48,798 nucleotides of DNA from Chlorobiota bacterium (GTDB taxonomy: Bacteria > Bacteroidota > Chlorobiia > Chlorobiales > Chlorobiaceae): assembly GCA_016866305.1 (NCBI GenBank), contig VGMX01000018.1, forward strand, positions 1 through 48,798, in the 5' to 3' direction. This document shows, one piece after another, positions 4,276-17,188 of this stretch. A program made the translations under genes and the position numbers. The notes under the pieces are model-generated. The model was not told the DNA's origin and did no database searches. It saw only the letters and a program-made list of their open reading frames with translations. Position 1 is the stretch's first letter. Every line of letters starts with the position of its first letter.

Positions 4276-5274
4276 ATGGATATGAGCGAAACGATACTGG
4301 TTACCGGTTCGACGGGTTTTATCGGGGCGAGGCTGCTGCACTGTCTCGAAGGCCGGGACTTTGCAGTGCGAGTGCTGCTCCGTCCCGAAAGCAACGCCCG
4401 ATCCCTGCCCGAAGGGGTTGATGCTGTGCGTGCGGATTTTTCCGATCCGGATGCTCTCGGTCGGGCTGTGCTTGGGGTGGCGCGTATCGTGCACCTTGCC
4501 GGCATCACCAGGGCCCGCAACGAGGAGGAGTTCGACCGTGGCAACGTGATGCCGGTGCGCAACCTGCTGGCCGCCGTGAGGGAGCACAATCCGGGGCTGA
4601 AGCGCTTCGTGCTGGTATCCTCACTCGCGGCTGCAGGCCCTGCCTCCGAAGGCGTTCACGGCGTGCGGGAATCGGACGAGCCTCGTCCGGTCAGTGCTTA
4701 CGGGCGCAGCAAGCTGCGAGCCGAGCGGATTTGCATGGATGCTTCGGGAACGGTGCCGGTCACCATTGTGCGTCCTCCCGCCGTGTATGGACCCGGCGAC
4801 CGCGACGTGCTGCAGGTGTTCCGGATGCTCTCGAAAGGAGTGCTGGTGTCGGCGGGAAATCCTTTTGTACAGCGCTTCAGCATGATCTACGTCGATGACC
4901 TGGTGCGGGGCATCATGGAGGCTGCGTATTCCGGAAACGCTGCCGGCCATCTGTATTATTTGACATCCCGGCAGACGTGGTCGTGGGATGATGTGATCGC
5001 CGCCGCGCGTCCCTCGCTCGGGTTCGGAAAATTGCGGCGCATCGTGTTGCCCAATCCGCTGGTATACCTGCTCGGGGCCTTCGGCGGGCTTGCTGGACGG
5101 CTTTCCGGAAAACCGCCGCTTATCAATCGAGACAAGGCAAACGAGCTTGTACAGGACTACTGGGTCTGTTCGTCCGAAAAAGCTGCGGAGGAGCTTGGTT
5201 TTATTGCGGCAACGCAGCTTGCCGAAGGCGTGGGAAAAACCATCGCATGGTACAGGAAGAAAGGGTGGATGTAA
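4276..5274 (+). CDS. NAD(P)-dependent epimerase/dehydratase (extended SDR)
   Basis: The product is 332 residues. It has a Rossmann dinucleotide motif at the N-terminus (LVTGSTGFIG), the catalytic YGRSK (Y142, K146) and upstream serines in VLVSSLAAAG (S115/S116). The C-terminal half holds a hydrophobic segment (LPNPLVYLLGAFGGLAG) that may associate with membrane. The second ATG at 4282 fits the AGG at 4273-4275 about as well and would remove two residues. The family reduces or epimerises sugars, sterols and ketones. Its position opposite an SPT-like gene makes reduction of a 3-keto lipid intermediate attractive, because bacterial ceramide pathways use an NAD-epimerase-type reductase. That role is inference. 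Confidence 0.8.
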   Translation: MDMSETILVTGSTGFIGARLLHCLEGRDFAVRVLLRPESNARSLPEGVDAVRADFSDPDALGRAVLGVARIVHLAGITRARNEEEFDRGNVMPVRNLLAAVREHNPGLKRFVLVSSLAAAGPASEGVHGVRESDEPRPVSAYGRSKLRAERICMDASGTVPVTIVRPPAVYGPGDRDVLQVFRMLSKGVLVSAGNPFVQRFSMIYVDDLVRGIMEAAYSGNAAGHLYYLTSRQTWSWDDVIAAARPSLGFGKLRRIVLPNPLVYLLGAFGGLAGRLSGKPPLINRDKANELVQDYWVCSSEKAAEELGFIAATQLAEGVGKTIAWYRKKGWM

Positions 5275-5380
5275 GATTATTTTTTTTCGTGCGTTATTCC
5301 TGGCGTAAGCGATGCGTGGTTGCGGTGTCTTGTCGAAAATATGCTCCTTGTTCCGCTTTTTTAAATGTGATAAAATCGGT

Positions 5381-5395
5381 ACCATTTTAAATGGT
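5381..5395. promoter_or_regulatory. Short perfect palindrome, possible operator
   Basis: ACCATTT-T-AAATGGT is a perfect 7-bp inverted repeat around one base, in a locally AT-rich patch of the 357-base gap before the autotransporter. Its spacing and symmetry fit a dimeric regulator site or a small hairpin. No factor can be assigned. The rest of 5275-5631 shows no gene, although the autotransporter frame stays open upstream to 5425. Confidence 0.3.
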
Positions 5396-5631
5396 CAACC
5401 AGACTCCCTGTTTTTTTTGCTGTATTGCCTAACCCGATGTCAGGGCTTTTTTTGTTGCGGGCGCCCTCATCGTGCCGGGCAGGCAGTTACAATTCCCCCG
5501 TAAAGGCAGGAATCAGGCCCTTGCCGTACGCCCCGATCACTTTTTTCTGCAATAGAGAGGGCCCGCTCGTCGGGTTCATGTTTCGTGGTGCGGTATCGGT
5601 TTGCTCCAGGTCAACTCAACACACGGGACAC

Positions 5632-8600
5632 ATGAAGAAAAAAACGCTGCAGCTTGTTCTGCTTTTTTCCCTGCTCCGCTCGATTCCTGCCGGGGCGGCG
5701 GATTTTACGGTCACCTCTCTTGCCGACACCGGAGCAGGCTCCCTGCGTACCGCTATCACGTCGCTGAACGCAAGCCCGGATGCTGCGAATTCCATCAGGT
5801 TCATGACAGGCGGAACCATCAATCCTGCAACGGCCCTGCCGGCAATAACGCGAAATGTGGATTTTTCGGCCCCCGGAGGTGCCGTCACGATCCAGAGAAG
5901 CGGCATGGGGAACGGAAACGGATTGCTGACAACCTCGGGCAGTCCCTCGGTTTCCTTTACCGGGCCGGTAACCCTCGTCGCTTCGGGTTCACTGAACGTT
6001 TCGGCAATCAGGGGTGGCGATAATCTGTGGATTTCCGGTTCCCTGCCGTACAACCTCAGCTCGTTGACCACCGGCAACGGAGCATATGGTACGTATTCAC
6101 GTCTTTCAACGACCATCGGTGGAGATGTGAGCGGAACCATTACCGCGAATGCCGGCACCTTTAACGCCTACGGTTTGCGTTCCGGAGGCGGCAACATGAA
6201 TATCACCGGTGATATTTCGGCCTTGATTCGGGTGTCGGCGGGTACTACCGCAGCTTACGGCGTGAGCGCGAGCGACAATATGACGATCAGCGGCGACGTT
6301 TCGGGCGACATAGGCTCCACGGCCGGCACCGGAACGGCATTCGGCATTCATGCCTATCGCAATCTCGGTATCGGCGGCGACGTGTCCGGCACGGTAAGCG
6401 GAACGGTGCTCAACGGGTCGGAAGCTTACGGCATCGGGGCAGGCATTGTTACTACCGGGACGAACAGGAACCTTACGATCGGCGGCGATATCTCCGGGAG
6501 GGTTACCGCATCGGCGAGCGGCAGCGGCGCGTACGGCATTTATGCCGGTCGCGACATCGCCATTGCCGGCGATCTGTCGGGAACGGTCGGAGCTACAGCG
6601 GGAACCTACGGCGCATATGCTCTGAGTGCGGGCAATGATCTGATGGTCGGCGGAGACCTGTCGGGCCGGATTGAAGCAACGGCCGGGACGCTCGATGCCT
6701 ACGGGCTCTCCTCATCTTACATATGACGCTGGGCGCCCTGTCGGGGACGATCGATGTCGATGTGCTGAACGGTTCGGGTGCATACGGCATTGGAGCGGGT
6801 ATGGCTGCGACGGGGACGAACAGGAATCTCGTGATCGGCGGCGACGTATCGGGAACAGTGACTGCTACGGCAGCAGGCGGTAACCGTGCGTACGGGCTTT
6901 ATGCCCGTCAGGACCTCTCGATCGGAGGCGGTGTTTCAGGAGTTGTGTCAGCAACGGCGGGCTTGAGCGATGCTGCAGGCATCTATTCCCTGGAAGGTTC
7001 TGTTAGGGGTGCATCTTCCTTTTCTCCACTTGTTGTTACCGGGTCGGTACTTGCAACTGCAACCGGAGCTTCAGCTGGAATTCTGTCATGGGATGCCATG
7101 AATTGTTGATGTTTTAGGTCTTGTTTCTGCTGCTGGAGCGAATGCGTATGCAATTCGTTCAGGACGCTTTGACGGCGCCGGTGGCTTTACCGATAACGGT
7201 TCTGCACCTTCGGACAGGGTTACTCTGGCCGCTGGTGGATCACTCCATGGCAGTGTTGACCTCGGGGGTGGTAGCGATTTTATGACGGTAATGGACAATT
7301 CGCTGATAAGCGGTGTGCCTGTGCTCTCAGGCGGGGCGGGCTATGACGAGTTGTATTTCGACTCCTGGAGCGGAGAACTCGGAGCCTCAGTCGTGAACTG
7401 GGAAATGACGACTGTAATGAGCGGGTCGGCGGTTGGACTGGGCGCACCGAAAGCCCTTGATGGAGATATGCACATCGAAAGAGGTTCGGCAGTGTCTGTT
7501 TCTGCAGCAGGAGGTCGCTACAGTCTCGGGGGTACCCTTGTCAACAATGGACTGCTCGATCTTCGCAATGGCAGTACCTCTGACCGTTTCAGGATTGAGG
7601 GGGATTACGCCGGTACTGGTGCGCTTGGTCTCGATATCGCACCCGGAAGTTCCGATCTGTTCTTGATCGCCGGCGACGCCGAAGGCTCCACCGCTCTTCT
7701 CCTGCGTGCCGAAGGCAGTGTCGCTTCGCTTCGTGACGGGGGCCCTCTTCTTCTGGCGCATGTCGACGGAACGTCGATGGAAAATGCTTTCGTTATGCAG
7801 TCTGCAGAGGGATATGGCCCGTATTCGATGGAACTGGTGATGGAGGCTGCGCCTTCAGGCGGCTACGACTGGTATCTCGGTATCGGGGGATACCTTCCTG
7901 AGGCGGTTGCCCTGCAGGCGCTGATGCCGTTTATCGGCCAGCCGCTTTCAGGAACGCTTCCCCGTTTCGGCGAACGTCTTGCCAGTTCGGGATATTGCCG
8001 TGCGTCGCATGAAAGCGGCGCGTTCTGGTCGAGAGCTTTCGGCAGCCGTTACCGTACGGAGTTTTCCGGCGACGTCGCGTCACATGTGAGCGGATACAGC
8101 GGTGGCGTGCAGGCGGGAGCCGATCTGTATGCCGGAAAAAACGGTGACGTTTCTTCTGCTGCCGGTCTTTACGCCGGAGCCGGATTTCAGCAGGGTGATG
8201 CGCCGGAGGCCGATGGCCGAAAGGCGGCCGGGCTCGAAGGCTCCTTCGTGCATGCCGGAGCTTACGCAACCCTTGCCGTGCCCGGATCGTATTACGTCGA
8301 ATGGATTCTGCAGGCCGGCTTTCATGATATTGCGCTGTCGTATGCATCGGGCGGACGGGATGACGCCGAAACCTGGAGCTGGCTTGCTTCGATGGAGGCC
8401 GGTCTCCGGATTCCTCTCGGCGGCGCCCTGTCGTTCGAACCGAAAGCACAGGTTATCTACCGTCACACAGGAGGGTTCTCTCTTTCGCCGGCGGCAACGG
8501 GCGAGGTCTGGGTTGATACGCTGCAGGGTATTCGCGCTCTTCTGGGTGCGGGTTTGACGTTCAGCGAGTGCGGCGGGTTCAACGGGTTTTTCGGGATGGA

Positions 8601-11708: not shown

Positions 11709-12926
11709 ATGCGTATCTTAACATTTACAGGTAAAGGCGGAGTAGGCAAAACCAGCGTGTCAGCTGCAACTGCTGTACGTTTGTCAGAGATGGGTCATCG
11801 TACCCTTGTGCTTTCAACCGACCCGGCCCACAGCCTGTCGGATTCATTTAACCTGCCTCTCGGCGCCGAACCAACCAAGATCAAGGAGAACCTGCATGCC
11901 ATCGAGGTCAATCCTTACGTCGATCTGAAGCAGAACTGGCAGTCGGTACAGAAATACTATACGAGAATTTTTATGGCCCAGGGCGTTTCCGGCGTCATGG
12001 CCGACGAAATGACCATTCTTCCTGGTATGGAAGAACTGTTTTCCCTGCTGAGAATCAAACGGTACAAGACCGCAGGTCTCTACGACGCGCTTGTGCTCGA
12101 CACCGCGCCGACCGGCGAGACCCTCAGGCTGCTTTCCCTTCCCGATACACTTTCATGGGGTATGAAGGCCGTCAAAAACGTTAATAAGTATATCATGCGT
12201 CCGCTCAGCAAGCCGCTGTCCAGGATGTCCGATAAAATTGCATACTTTATTCCTCCGGAAGATGCTATCGAATCGGTCGATCAGGTGTTCGACGAGCTCG
12301 AAGACATTCGGGAAATTCTTACCGACAACGTTAAATCGACGGTGCGTCTTGTCATGAACGCCGAAAAGATGTCGATCAAGGAGACCATGAGGGCGCTGAC
12401 CTATCTGAACCTCTACGGTTTCAAGGTCGATATGGTTCTGGTGAACAGACTGCTCGATACCAACGAGAACAGCGGGTACCTCGAGAAATGGAAGGGCATC
12501 CAGCAGAAATATCTCGGCGAAATCGAGGAAGGGTTCTCTCCGCTGCCGGTCAAGAAGCTGAAAATGTACGATCAGGAGATCGTGGGACTCAAGTCGCTCG
12601 AGATGTTTGCCCGTGATATGTACGGTGATACCGATCCTTCGGCTCTCATGTACAACGAACCGCCCATCAAATTTGTGCGCAACGGAGATATTTACGAGGT
12701 GCAGCTGAAGCTCATGTTCGCAAATCCCGTCGATATCGATGTCTGGGTGACCGGCGACGAGCTTTATGTGCAGATCGGCAACCAGCGCAAGATCATCACC
12801 CTGCCCATAAGCCTTACCGGCCTGGAACCGGGCGATGCGGTTTTCAAGGACAAATGGCTCCACATCCCGTTCGATCTGAACCATCAGGGTCAGCATCAGC
12901 GGCAGAAAGAGTTCAACAAAGTCTGA
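11709..12926 (+). CDS. Get3/ArsA-family ATPase with C-terminal alpha-crystallin-like domain (copy 1)
   Basis: This 405-residue soluble ATPase has the deviant Walker [11 protein letters not shown] (G8-K14, including the signature lysine K9), switch I in [12 protein letters not shown], and [13 protein letters not shown]. Residues 1 to about 310 are the Get3/ArsA fold. Residues about 320-395 ([20 protein letters not shown], then IITLPISL and KWLHIPF) match the ArsA_HSP20-type alpha-crystallin-like domain. No CxxC zinc motif and no cysteine are visible, so it is unlike eukaryotic Get3 or an arsenite pump. The domain order matches the Get3d group reported from photosynthetic lineages. Start 11709 is chosen because the Walker A follows directly; upstream residues look unstructured. 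It lies just before csmC. Role: probable client-protein chaperone or targeting ATPase; the client is unknown. Confidence 0.87.
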
Positions 12927-13054: not shown

Positions 13055-13474
13055 ATGTCAGAAACCTATCAGAAGCTTCGCAAGGATTTCAAAGATCTTG
13101 ATTTTACCGACCGTCTTACCTTTGTTGCAGAGAGTTTGGTGCTGACAGGTCAAGGCGCTGTTGTTGGGGGCTTGACTCTTGCCGGAACCGTTTTTGATAC
13201 ATTGATTAATAGTGCGGGTTCTTTTTTGGATGCTACAGGTGTTTTGAACATGCTGGGACGAACTGGCGGTGTTGTGGGTGAAACAATTGACAGGGTCGCA
13301 ATAACGGTAAAAGATGTATCTCGGGCGGCAGGTGACCTGTATGTCAACGCTGTTGATGCTGTGGAAAATGTAACAGACAATGCAGCCGCTGCTGTTGGCG
13401 ATGCAGGAATTTCTGCTTCGGAGGCCGTGAAGAATATTGCGGGTTCTTTCCAGAAAACCGGTGAAAAAAAGTAA
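13055..13474 (+). CDS. csmC: Chlorosome envelope protein C
   Basis: The 139-residue product begins [20 protein letters not shown] after a good ribosome site (AGGAG at 13043-13047). The central part is Gly/Ala/Val-rich and amphipathic to hydrophobic ([20 protein letters not shown], then [17 protein letters not shown]). The C-terminal third is Ala/Val/Asp-rich and ends in a lysine tail. Size, composition and position directly upstream of csmA match CsmC of other green sulfur bacteria, which sits in the galactolipid monolayer around chlorosomes. A short GTAAC/GTTAC palindrome lies about 60 bases before the start. Confidence 0.87.
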
Positions 13475-13608: not shown

Positions 13609-13854
13609 ATGAGTGGTGGTGGCGTTTTTACCGATATCCTTGCTGCTTCAGGCCGTATTTTTGAAGTCATGGTCGAAGGGCATTGGGCTACAGTAGGGAT
13701 GCTGTTTGATTCTCTGGGTAAAGGTGTAATGAGAATCAACCAGAATGCTTACGGCAATATGGGCGGTGGCGGTGGAAGCCTTCGCGGCTCATCACCTGAG
13801 GTATCAGGTTATGCTGTTCCCTCCAAGGCTGTTGATTCAAAGTTTGCAAAATAA
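13609..13854 (+). CDS. csmA: Chlorosome baseplate protein, bacteriochlorophyll a-binding
   Basis: The 81-residue precursor starts [20 protein letters not shown]. The conserved [17 protein letters not shown] follows, in which H25 is the proposed ligand of bacteriochlorophyll a. The glycine-rich MGGGGGSLR precedes the C-terminal extension that is removed in mature CsmA. Maturation after about 59 residues is known for this family, leaving about 22 residues cleaved here. CsmA forms the paracrystalline baseplate that passes excitation energy from the chlorosome to the FMO protein. A perfect ribosome site (AAGGAGG, 13598-13604) four bases before ATG, plus its own promoter and terminator, indicate very high expression. 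Confidence 0.97.
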
Positions 13855-14106: not shown

Positions 14107-14130
14107 AACCGGTTGCAACCGGTTGTTTTT
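14107..14130 (+). repeat. Twin AACCGGTT palindromes before the 591-residue protein
   Basis: Two perfect 8-bp palindromes AACCGGTT (14107-14114 and 14117-14124) are separated by GC and followed by GTTTTT. They can fold together as a 7-bp stem with a TGCA loop plus T tract, i.e. a terminator. Alternatively they may be paired binding sites for a regulator, 48 bases before the next start. The stretch 13919-14106 shows a further GGGCAA/TTGCCC hairpin (14022-14038) but no gene. Confidence 0.45.
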
Positions 14131-14171: not shown

Positions 14172-15947
14172 ATGGCCACTATTTCATTATATGTATCCGG
14201 ACAGACAGAGCTGAATGATGTCACCGAGTTTTTTCAGAAAAACCTCATGAATGCCCGTGAAAATCCCGTGGCTTTTTTTGACGGGGTTTTCTATGAATCT
14301 CACCAGGAGCGTGTAGGCAATATTGTTTTTCAGGATTACCTGGTCTACACCGATAAAGCGGTTTACCTCTGGGCAAGAGGTGCGAACAAGGATTATCTCG
14401 ACCGGTTCAACCTCGGTTCGGTTTCGGTGAACAGCCGCAACAAGGACAGCGACTTCGCCACCCTGAATCTCAAGATCCGGAGAGAGGAGAAGGAGCCGGT
14501 GTACGTGATTTTCGATATGGTTGAAATACAGGAGGCGGAGCTGATAACGAGGCTGCATACCGTTATCGAGTCTGCCATTGAAGACGTGCTCGGGGTGAAT
14601 TACCGCAAGGAGATTCCTGATCCCGTTGCGGCACGGGTTCTCCATGCAGCGCGCAACATCTGCCCTTTCCAGCCTTTTTCCATTTCCATTCCCGAAGGTC
14701 CGGCGGTGCACCAGGACAGTTCCATTGGCTACGGCCAGGATCTGCTCGAGCAGTACAAGGCATCCATCGGCTACGGCCAGGAAGAGCAGGCATCTCCCGC
14801 GCAGCATGTCCACAATCCTGCTGCAGAAGCCATGAGAGGGCTCGAGAATATTCTGCCTGCCGATCCCGCTGCACTCAAGCGAATAGCTTCTTCAATAAAG
14901 GATATTGTCGGTGATGCTCCTTTCAAACTGCGTGATCAGGTCATGAAAGATCTGCAGCATGTTCCGGGAGACGTCGCCACGGTTCTGACGGCACTGAATG
15001 AACTGCTGGCCAACATTGCAGGGAACCCGCAGGCAGAGCGATTCGTCATGACGGCCATTACCACGGCAGTCAGGAACGATGGTGTGCTCGGCTCTATCGG
15101 CAAGATGCTCAAGCTTACGACAGGGTTTGGTTCCGGCGGCGGCAGGAAGCAGGCTCCGAAACATGCCTCGGGAAGTGACCGTCACTCCCGTGATGATGAT
15201 GCATTACACGCAAAACGTCCTTCTTTTGACGATGACGATGCTTCGACAATCCGCAGAAAGAAAATCAGCATCAAGGACGATTCTCTTCAGGATGGTTCCG
15301 GCATGTTTGCCGGAGAAATGCCTGAGGATGAGAGGTTGCCCTTGCCTGGAGAGCGTCGCCGCAAGGACGATCTTGCCGACGATGATGCGGATAGGGGCAT
15401 AAAGCGCAAGAAAATAAGCATCAAGGCTGATGAAAGCGAGGCTTCGGCACTTGTCAGGGACATGATGGCCATGGATACGTCCCCTGCAGATGCGGCTTCA
15501 GCGCCGGTAAGGGAGGAGCCTCCGGCAGCAGCGGATAAACCGGTTGCCACAACGGAGGTGCGCCACAAGAAAATAAAAATTGTTGCCGACGCAGCCGATG
15601 CGTCTGACGAACCGGGCAGGACACAGGAGGAGCCGGAATCGGAACCTCTTCATCCTGCAGAAGAGGCGGGAGAAAGCCCGGTGCGCCGCAAGATAATTGC
15701 AATTGTAGCTGATGCTCCTGCCGAAGAGGAGATGGGCGTTTCGGAAGAGGATCTTGCCGGGGCTCTCGGTGAAGCGAGCGCCGGCGGCGGAAGTGCCGGA
15801 GTGTATACGACCATCGAGTCCGACAGTGAGCAATCCGTTGCGGGGGAAAAAACGGAAGAATCGGATAATTCCGGTACCGGCCAGAAAACCGGGGAATACG
15901 GAGAACAGTCCATGAAACGTACAATCAAGGTCAAGTCTACTCAATAG
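14172..15947 (+). CDS. Uncharacterised protein with PH-like N-terminus and repeated I-x-I/V tail motifs
   Basis: I do not recognise this 591-residue protein as a named family. Residues about 25-150 ([18 protein letters not shown], then [19 protein letters not shown]) resemble a bacterial PH-like beta domain. SIGYGQ occurs twice near 185-205. Residues about 215-335 look helical. From about 340 the chain is acidic and probably disordered, broken by five basic beta-strand-like motifs: [11 protein letters not shown] (360), [11 protein letters not shown] (410), [11 protein letters not shown] (463), [11 protein letters not shown] (504) and [11 protein letters not shown] (581, the C-terminus). Each holds an I-x-I or I-x-V core. 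It has no signal peptide or membrane segment. The stop is 13 bases before the second Get3-type ATPase, so the two are probably co-transcribed; csmA is just upstream. Suggested role: adaptor or scaffold in chlorosome protein handling (inference). Confidence 0.8.
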
Positions 15948-15960
15948 TTCTGTAAAAAAC

Positions 15961-17115
15961 ATGAGAATCATTCTTTATCTGGGTAAGGGCGGGGTTGGAA
16001 AAACCACCGTCTCGGCGTCGACGGCAACGGCAATCGCCCGTCGTGGAGAGCGCGTGCTTATTATGAGCACCGATGTGGCCCACAGTCTTGCCGATGCGTT
16101 CAGTGTCGAACTGAGCCAGACTCCGATCGAGGTGGAAAAGAACCTTTTTGCCATGGAAGTGAACGTTCTGACTGAAATCCGGGAAAACTGGAACGAACTC
16201 TATTCCTACTTCTCGTCGATTCTCATGCACGACGGCGCCAACGAGGTTGTGGCTGAAGAGCTCGCCATCGTGCCGGGCATGGAGGAGATGATCAGCCTCC
16301 GCCATATCTGGAAAGCGGCAAAATCGGGCAATTACGACGTGATCATCGTCGATGCCGCGCCGACCGGCGAAACCATGCGCCTGCTCGGCATGCCTGAATC
16401 CTACGGCTGGTACTCCGACAAGATCGGCGGCTGGCATTCCAAGGCTATCGGTTTCGCCGCACCGCTGCTTTCGAAGTTCATGCCGAAAAAGAACATCTTC
16501 AAGCTCATGCCCGAAGTGAACGAGCATATGAAGGAACTGCACGGCATGCTGCAGGACAAGAGCATCACCACCTTCCGCGTTGTGCTGAACCCCGAGAACA
16601 TGGTGATCAAGGAGGCGCTCCGCGTGCAGACCTACCTGAACCTGTTCGGCTACAAGCTCGATGCTGCCGTAGTCAACAAAATCCTGCCTGAAAGCTCTGC
16701 CGACCAGTATCTGCAGAGCCTGATCGACATCCAGCAGAAGTATCTGCGGGTCATCGACAACTGCTTCTATCCGCTGCCGATCTTCCGCGCACATCAGCAG
16801 ACCAGCGAGGTGATCAATACCGACCGGCTGCATGTGCTGAGCCAGGAGATTTTCGGCGCCAAGGACCCTGCAGCAGTGCTCTACAGCAACGACAAGACCC
16901 AGACCCTCGATAAGATCGACGGCAAGTATGTGCTGAGCCTTCACCTGCCGAACGTCGAAGTCAGGAAGCTGAACGTCAACATCAAGGGCGATGAGCTGCT
17001 TGTGGATATCAACAATATCCGAAAGAGCATCATCCTGCCGAACGTGCTGGTCGGCCGCAAGACCGAGGGCGCTGATTTCGCAGCGGGAAATCTCAACATC
17101 ACCTTCGCGAACTGA
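15961..17115 (+). CDS. Get3/ArsA-family ATPase with C-terminal alpha-crystallin-like domain (copy 2)
   Basis: The product is 384 residues. It has the Walker [11 protein letters not shown] (G8-K14), switch [13 protein letters not shown] and [16 protein letters not shown]. It has the same domain order as the copy at 11709. The Get3 fold covers about 1-305 and an alpha-crystallin-like domain about 313-384 ([19 protein letters not shown], then [11 protein letters not shown]). Only one cysteine is seen and no CxxC, so it is neither an arsenite pump nor a zinc-bridged Get3. The paralogues differ enough (for example [18 protein letters not shown] here) to suggest separate clients or a heterodimer. 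It lies 13 bases behind the 591-residue protein gene and is followed by a terminator. Confidence 0.87.
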
Positions 17116-17155
17116 GGGGTTTCAGCAAGAACCGTAAGGGTTCATCGTGCAGCAG

Positions 17156-17188
17156 GCAGCATCCGGTCGAGGGATGCTGCTTTTTTTT
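17156..17188. terminator. Terminator between ATPase copy 2 and folK
   Basis: GCAGCATCC (17156-17164) pairs with GGATGCTGC (17172-17180), followed by eight T residues. It serves the plus-strand ATPase. The minus strand lacks an equally strong T run. Confidence 0.85.

Follow-up and report, generated by a model that had tools for sequence, protein, structure and literature searches.

In the window, which is the whole 48,798-nucleotide stretch of green sulfur bacterial DNA that was analyzed, two ATPases of the Get3d type enclose two chlorosome genes and a gene for a protein with a repetitive tail, which we refer to as the scaffold. All are on the plus strand, in the order get3d, csmC, csmA, scaffold, get3d (Table 1), and this order recurs, within the limits of the contigs, at all loci with a scaffold gene, in four families. 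Synteny of this kind is functional linkage, not contact. Whole-protein searches placed the scaffold in none of the Pfam (E ≤ 1) or NCBIfam families and returned no sequence relative in the PDB; it is a green sulfur bacterial protein that had not been named before. No mention of CT1941, which we take to be the Chlorobaculum tepidum gene number, was found in the literature searched.

Table 1. Features of the scaffold locus, in positions of the window.
Feature	Position	Strand	Remarks
Upstream Get3d-type ATPase	11712..12926	+	ArsA_ATPase + ArsA_HSP20
Alpha-crystallin domain of upstream Get3d	12687..12872	+	
csmC, chlorosome envelope protein C	13055..13474	+	PF11098, E=2.5e-61
csmA, chlorosome baseplate BChl a-binding protein	13609..13854	+	PF02043, E=5.8e-36
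Terminator-like hairpin 3' of csmA	14107..14124	+	consensus match only
Scaffold gene, tail-bearing, 591 aa	14172..15947	+	ORF open, ATG start
N-terminal PH/PTB-like domain, residues 1-163 (predicted)	14172..14660	+	AF2, Foldseek
Conserved helical middle, about residues 164-326	14661..15149	+	low model confidence
Motif 1, RRKKISIK, residues 361-368	15252..15275	+	
Invariant F379, first linker	15306..15308	+	entropy 0; GMFAG / DCFGS / DLFAG in relatives
Motif 2, KRKKISIK, residues 411-418	15402..15425	+	
Second conserved tail element, 10 residues	15447..15476	+	predicted helix 426-435
Motif 3, RHKKIKIV, residues 464-471	15561..15584	+	
Motif 4, RRKIIAIV, residues 505-512	15684..15707	+	
Third tail element, SEEDLAGAL region	15744..15767	+	predicted helix 525-532; then YTTIESD
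Motif 5, MKRTIKVK, residues 581-588	15912..15935	+	three residues (STQ) before stop
Downstream Get3d-type ATPase	15961..17115	+	starts 13 nt past scaffold stop codon
Alpha-crystallin domain of downstream Get3d (proposed receptor)	16918..17106	+	protein end directly past last strand
Terminator-like hairpin, cluster end	17154..17182	+	11 pairs, T-run; consensus match only

Both flanking ATPases combine PF02374 with a C-terminal PF17886 alpha-crystallin domain (ArsA_HSP20), which is the architecture of Get3d, and they share with Arabidopsis At1g26090 and Nostoc All4481 a P-loop Get3 fold joined to this domain. Each contains GKGGVGKT, with the Walker A lysine that Get3d keeps in green sulfur bacteria, and the downstream protein, which has a single Cys, is like Get3d in having no CxxC zinc motif. 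The scaffold itself is not a Get3d. When the downstream protein was modeled as part of the fusion described below, its best PDB match by Foldseek was NosGet3d (8egk). Its alpha-crystallin domain is strongly conserved across families, and strands like β4 (KLNVNIKG) and β8/β9 (GADFxxGNLNITF) align with those of small heat-shock proteins (sHSPs). In every species where its end is seen, the C-terminus lies immediately past the last strand, which leaves the protein without an IxI tail. Conservation of Get3d extends over green sulfur bacteria, cyanobacteria and plants; the paper on its structures (PMC10248533) describes no partner for it and leaves open what the alpha-crystallin domain does. According to the same paper, this domain is without the β6 loop and is packed against the Get3 dimer. 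Its groove may therefore be hidden.

An earlier note on this DNA had placed five basic I-x-I/V motifs in an acidic, disordered tail, and the analysis bears this out. The motifs (IRRKKISI, IKRKKISI, VRHKKIKI, VRRKIIAI and MKRTIKV) stand where they had been located, their number compares with 0.16 expected and a maximum of 2 in 300 composition-preserving shuffles, and the linkers between them are acidic (D+E 23%). Two small corrections concern motif 5: it is one basic residue short and does not fully match the shared pattern that had been proposed, [IVM][RK][RH]K-[KI]-I-x-[IV], and three residues (STQ) separate its end from the C-terminus with which it had been equated. Residues 330–591 have a pLDDT of about 35 and are predicted to be disordered. 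Indeed, the only confident part of the whole-protein AlphaFold2 model (20 homologues) is the N-terminal domain, composed of strands plus a C-terminal helix with pLDDT mostly 70–91. Its Foldseek matches are mostly PH/PTB-like folds (best E 5e-4), with no Pfam match, and the model gives the strand/helix order of the PH superfold, a seven-stranded barrel with a C-terminal helix cap. On this model, residues from about 1 to 163 would form a PH-like domain, predicted with fair confidence.

The scaffold gene is present in 43 of 61 related genomes, and of the 394 genomes of the phylum that were searched with a profile of its N-terminal part, 89 have it, all of them Chlorobiales, with one scaffold per genome except in one fragmented assembly. 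In scaffold-less G105 the contig stops just before the scaffold position, in G013 and G032 the downstream Get3d ortholog is found as fragments only, and in G001, G014, G022, G047 and G328 this ortholog is missing as well; for these reasons, the scaffold-less genomes give no evidence of independent loss. The motif is kept in all 57 distinct homologues measured, with 186 copies observed vs 8.8 expected, so that the loss among relatives that would have counted against the earlier proposal is absent. Chlorobiaceae scaffolds have two to eight copies. Those of the distant Chlorobiales families have one, or two in the case of L059, and the last copy starts 8–13 residues from the C-terminus, as in ...ERKKKIKIRIE and ...GQRKKIKIKIDSN. 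The tail of the L042 scaffold (locus 4530–6860) contains five nearly identical tandem units, LKKIRIMPEPEPEIEREPEVEAEPE, which show that motif plus linker were duplicated recently. The second conserved tail element, repeated in some relatives as IARKLMSYDE, comes after several of the IxI motifs. The scaffolds of L040, L041, L043, L044, L045, L047, L048 and L051 end in an Arg/Lys/Gly-rich stretch, either SGKASRGKRRGR or RKKFxxPGKHGR[RK], not in IxI.

Conservation above the linkers, which the earlier note had proposed as a check for purifying selection, is seen by both measures employed. Among 47 aligned Chlorobiaceae proteins, the mean column entropy is 1.33 bits in the motifs vs 2.42 in the linkers (Mann-Whitney p about 2e-9, indicative only, as the sequences are related by descent). 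In 66 overlapping pairs with pooled pS <0.55, dN is 0.065 in the N-terminal part, 0.133 in the motifs and 0.270 in the linkers, and the corresponding dN/dS values are 0.10, 0.20 and 0.33; a codon was scored as motif if either sequence has a motif there, a rule that biases the comparison against the motif. Positions -3 [RK], -2 K, 0 [IVL] and +2 [IV] are fixed and -1 and +1 vary, which gives the consensus [RK]-K-x-I-x-[IV]-[KRV], trailed by an acidic run with D/E at +5 to +7. In the alignment, all residues (100%) at the two hydrophobic positions of motifs 1, 2, 3 and 5 are hydrophobic, and motifs 1–3 show almost no variation in the basic residues at -3 and -2. Diverging copies lose the basic residues and keep I/V-x-I/V (L034 NIKISIRDE, L037 KHSVTVKITP, L031 NRTIKIKSTQ). 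The alternation of fixed -2, 0 and +2 with free -1 and +1 reads as the signature of a one-faced strand.

A motif of this kind is familiar from sHSPs, whose IxI binds the β4-β8 cleft of a neighboring alpha-crystallin domain (PMC4823740). The scaffold motifs are like the C-terminal IxI/V of AgsA, MjHsp16.5 and wheat Hsp16.9 in the I-x-[IV] core, the free x and the basic neighbors. As in sHSP tails, the distant families have I/V-x-I/V with a variable x at the C-terminal end or close to it. The genome from which the window comes encodes two Hsp20 proteins that end in ...KKGKDIKVK and ...VRKTKEISIR, i.e., K-x-I-x-[IV]-[KR], and the scaffold motifs match both, including the K two residues ahead of the first I, while being more basic than the sHSP tails. 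Unlike sHSPs, the scaffold is without an alpha-crystallin domain and has up to eight motifs per chain, mostly internal. By domain content it is not an Hsp20, as neither PF00011 nor PF17886 is found in it and its folded domain is predicted to be PH-like, and in this genome the hsp20 genes show no genomic linkage to it.

Two known systems offer further comparisons. In BAG3, two IPV motifs mediate sHSP binding (PMC6297355), and the scaffold resembles BAG3 with HSPB8/HSPB1 as a putative multi-motif, in-trans docker of alpha-crystallin domains that has another binding domain in addition. In contrast to BAG3, it is bacterial, has no sequence relationship to that protein and contains no WW or BAG domain (no Pfam at E ≤ 1), and its receptor would be an alpha-crystallin domain fused to an ATPase. 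Any likeness is one of functional analogy only, and the scaffold is not a BAG3 family member. Get4/Get5, the partners of cytosolic Get3, are alike in that the scaffold, too, would link Get3 to its clients as a non-ATPase partner, though no similarity to them was found. In Get3d, the protein's own alpha-crystallin domain occupies the Get4 site (PMC10248533).

We consider the best explanation, at a probability of about 0.45, to be that the scaffold is a PH-like adaptor whose tail motifs dock alpha-crystallin domains, those of Get3d first, in the handling of chlorosome proteins. It would be a soluble protein in which the PH-like domain and a helical middle are followed by a long, disordered, acidic tail that strings together 1–8 docking motifs of the sHSP type. 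Each motif would add as a short β-strand to the β4-β8 groove of an alpha-crystallin domain in trans, and the first receptor would be that of the Get3d encoded 13 nt downstream, which synteny makes the likeliest one. Several Get3d dimers would then be gathered on a single tail and carried to where the hydrophobic envelope proteins CsmA and CsmC are made, chaperoned or delivered; it is only the gene neighborhood that points to such delivery or protection. Groove docking, the choice of Get3d rather than an sHSP as receptor and a part in the handling of chlorosome proteins are what we infer here. The conservation, the disorder and the evolution of copy number support the multivalent binding scaffold suggested in the earlier note, with the binding itself likewise a deduction. 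Taken together, the scaffold gene is a good candidate for a Get3d partner. The more specific proposal that it is the order-specific co-chaperone scaffold of Get3d in green sulfur bacteria, with IxI repeats that fill the grooves in the handling of chlorosome envelope proteins, is put forward tentatively.

A docking model was built with the L037 tail and the downstream Get3d as one chain, the TAG stop being read through (table 16) as a modeling device. In this AlphaFold2 fusion (29 rows, single chain, no dimer) the motifs are undocked and unstructured, with pLDDT of about 25–30 and no strand, and Get3d itself is modeled at only about 30–82 pLDDT. The result is mild evidence against docking, and neither proof nor exclusion. 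Other points against the explanation are the groove that may be hidden, the greater basicity of the motifs compared with sHSP tails and the missing relation between motif number and Get3d paralogue number. The fusion, which put no motif on the alpha-crystallin domain, also fits a reading in which the motifs add as strands to some other receptor, such as a different site of Get3d, a PH-like domain supplied in trans or a chlorosome-assembly factor. PH/PTB-like domains can bind peptides, and the alternating fixed positions would suit any edge-strand docking. We regard this possibility as somewhat unlikely, however, since the motifs are unstructured in the scaffold-only model, so that docking to the scaffold's own PH-like domain is not predicted, and since the match to sHSP tails would be left unexplained. 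A further alternative has the canonical sHSPs as receptors in place of Get3d: with two Hsp20 genes in the genome, C-termini that the motifs resemble and the BAG3-HSPB precedent, the scaffold could be a BAG3-like bridge carrying sHSPs to the chlorosome/Get3d pathway. This is clearly unlikely, as the hsp20 genes are unlinked in this genome, while linkage to two Get3d genes is seen wherever the contigs are long enough to show it.

The remaining alternatives dispense with strand docking. PH-like domains often bind lipids, and the nearly invariant basic residues at -3 and -2 of motifs 1–3 could touch anionic lipids in the chlorosome envelope, or else nucleic acid, with the hydrophobic residues aiding insertion. 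Contact through the basic residues had been the second possibility in the earlier note, but the pattern of conservation disfavors it: the I and I/V are fixed while the residues between them vary, diverged copies shed the basic residues and not the hydrophobic ones, and each motif is followed by its acidic run. We think it improbable. The five near-identical units of L042 might further suggest that the copies are tandem duplications of a low-complexity tail that have little function. The conservation tests (dN/dS 0.20 vs 0.33 in the linkers) disfavor this reading, as does the persistence of the C-terminal copy in distant families, and we give it very little credence.

Were docking to Get3d correct, the Get3d alpha-crystallin domain would acquire a function, in that the scaffold would cluster or unlock it, and the pair would represent an independently evolved bacterial counterpart of the BAG3-sHSP arrangement. 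A syntenic, motif-bearing candidate turns the questions of the Get3d partner and of the role of the alpha-crystallin domain (PMC10248533) into direct binding experiments. The scaffold is also a candidate route for the handling of chlorosome envelope proteins, and Get3d is common to green sulfur bacteria, cyanobacteria and plant chloroplasts.

Finally, the other Get3d loci of the same genome have no second such tail near them, and motif number (1–8) bears no relation to the number of Get3d paralogues; PF17886 matches number 5–9 in the distant families, which have one or two motifs, and are similar in Chlorobiaceae. Another Get3d paralogue (G000 contig 16:23337-24641; L076:9338-10645, minus strand; orthologues L077-L106) extends at the C-terminus past its alpha-crystallin domain. 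All the orthologues seen from the same genus share the ending RR[LMV]K[IVL]-COOH, which the other families of the order do not have. This extension may be a tail that docks in cis or between Get3d molecules. On G000 contig 35:3838-8429 (L073), a second gene of the CsmA family (PF02043) lies within 4 kb of yet another Get3d paralogue, and a chlorosome protein may thus be associated with Get3d twice in the genome.
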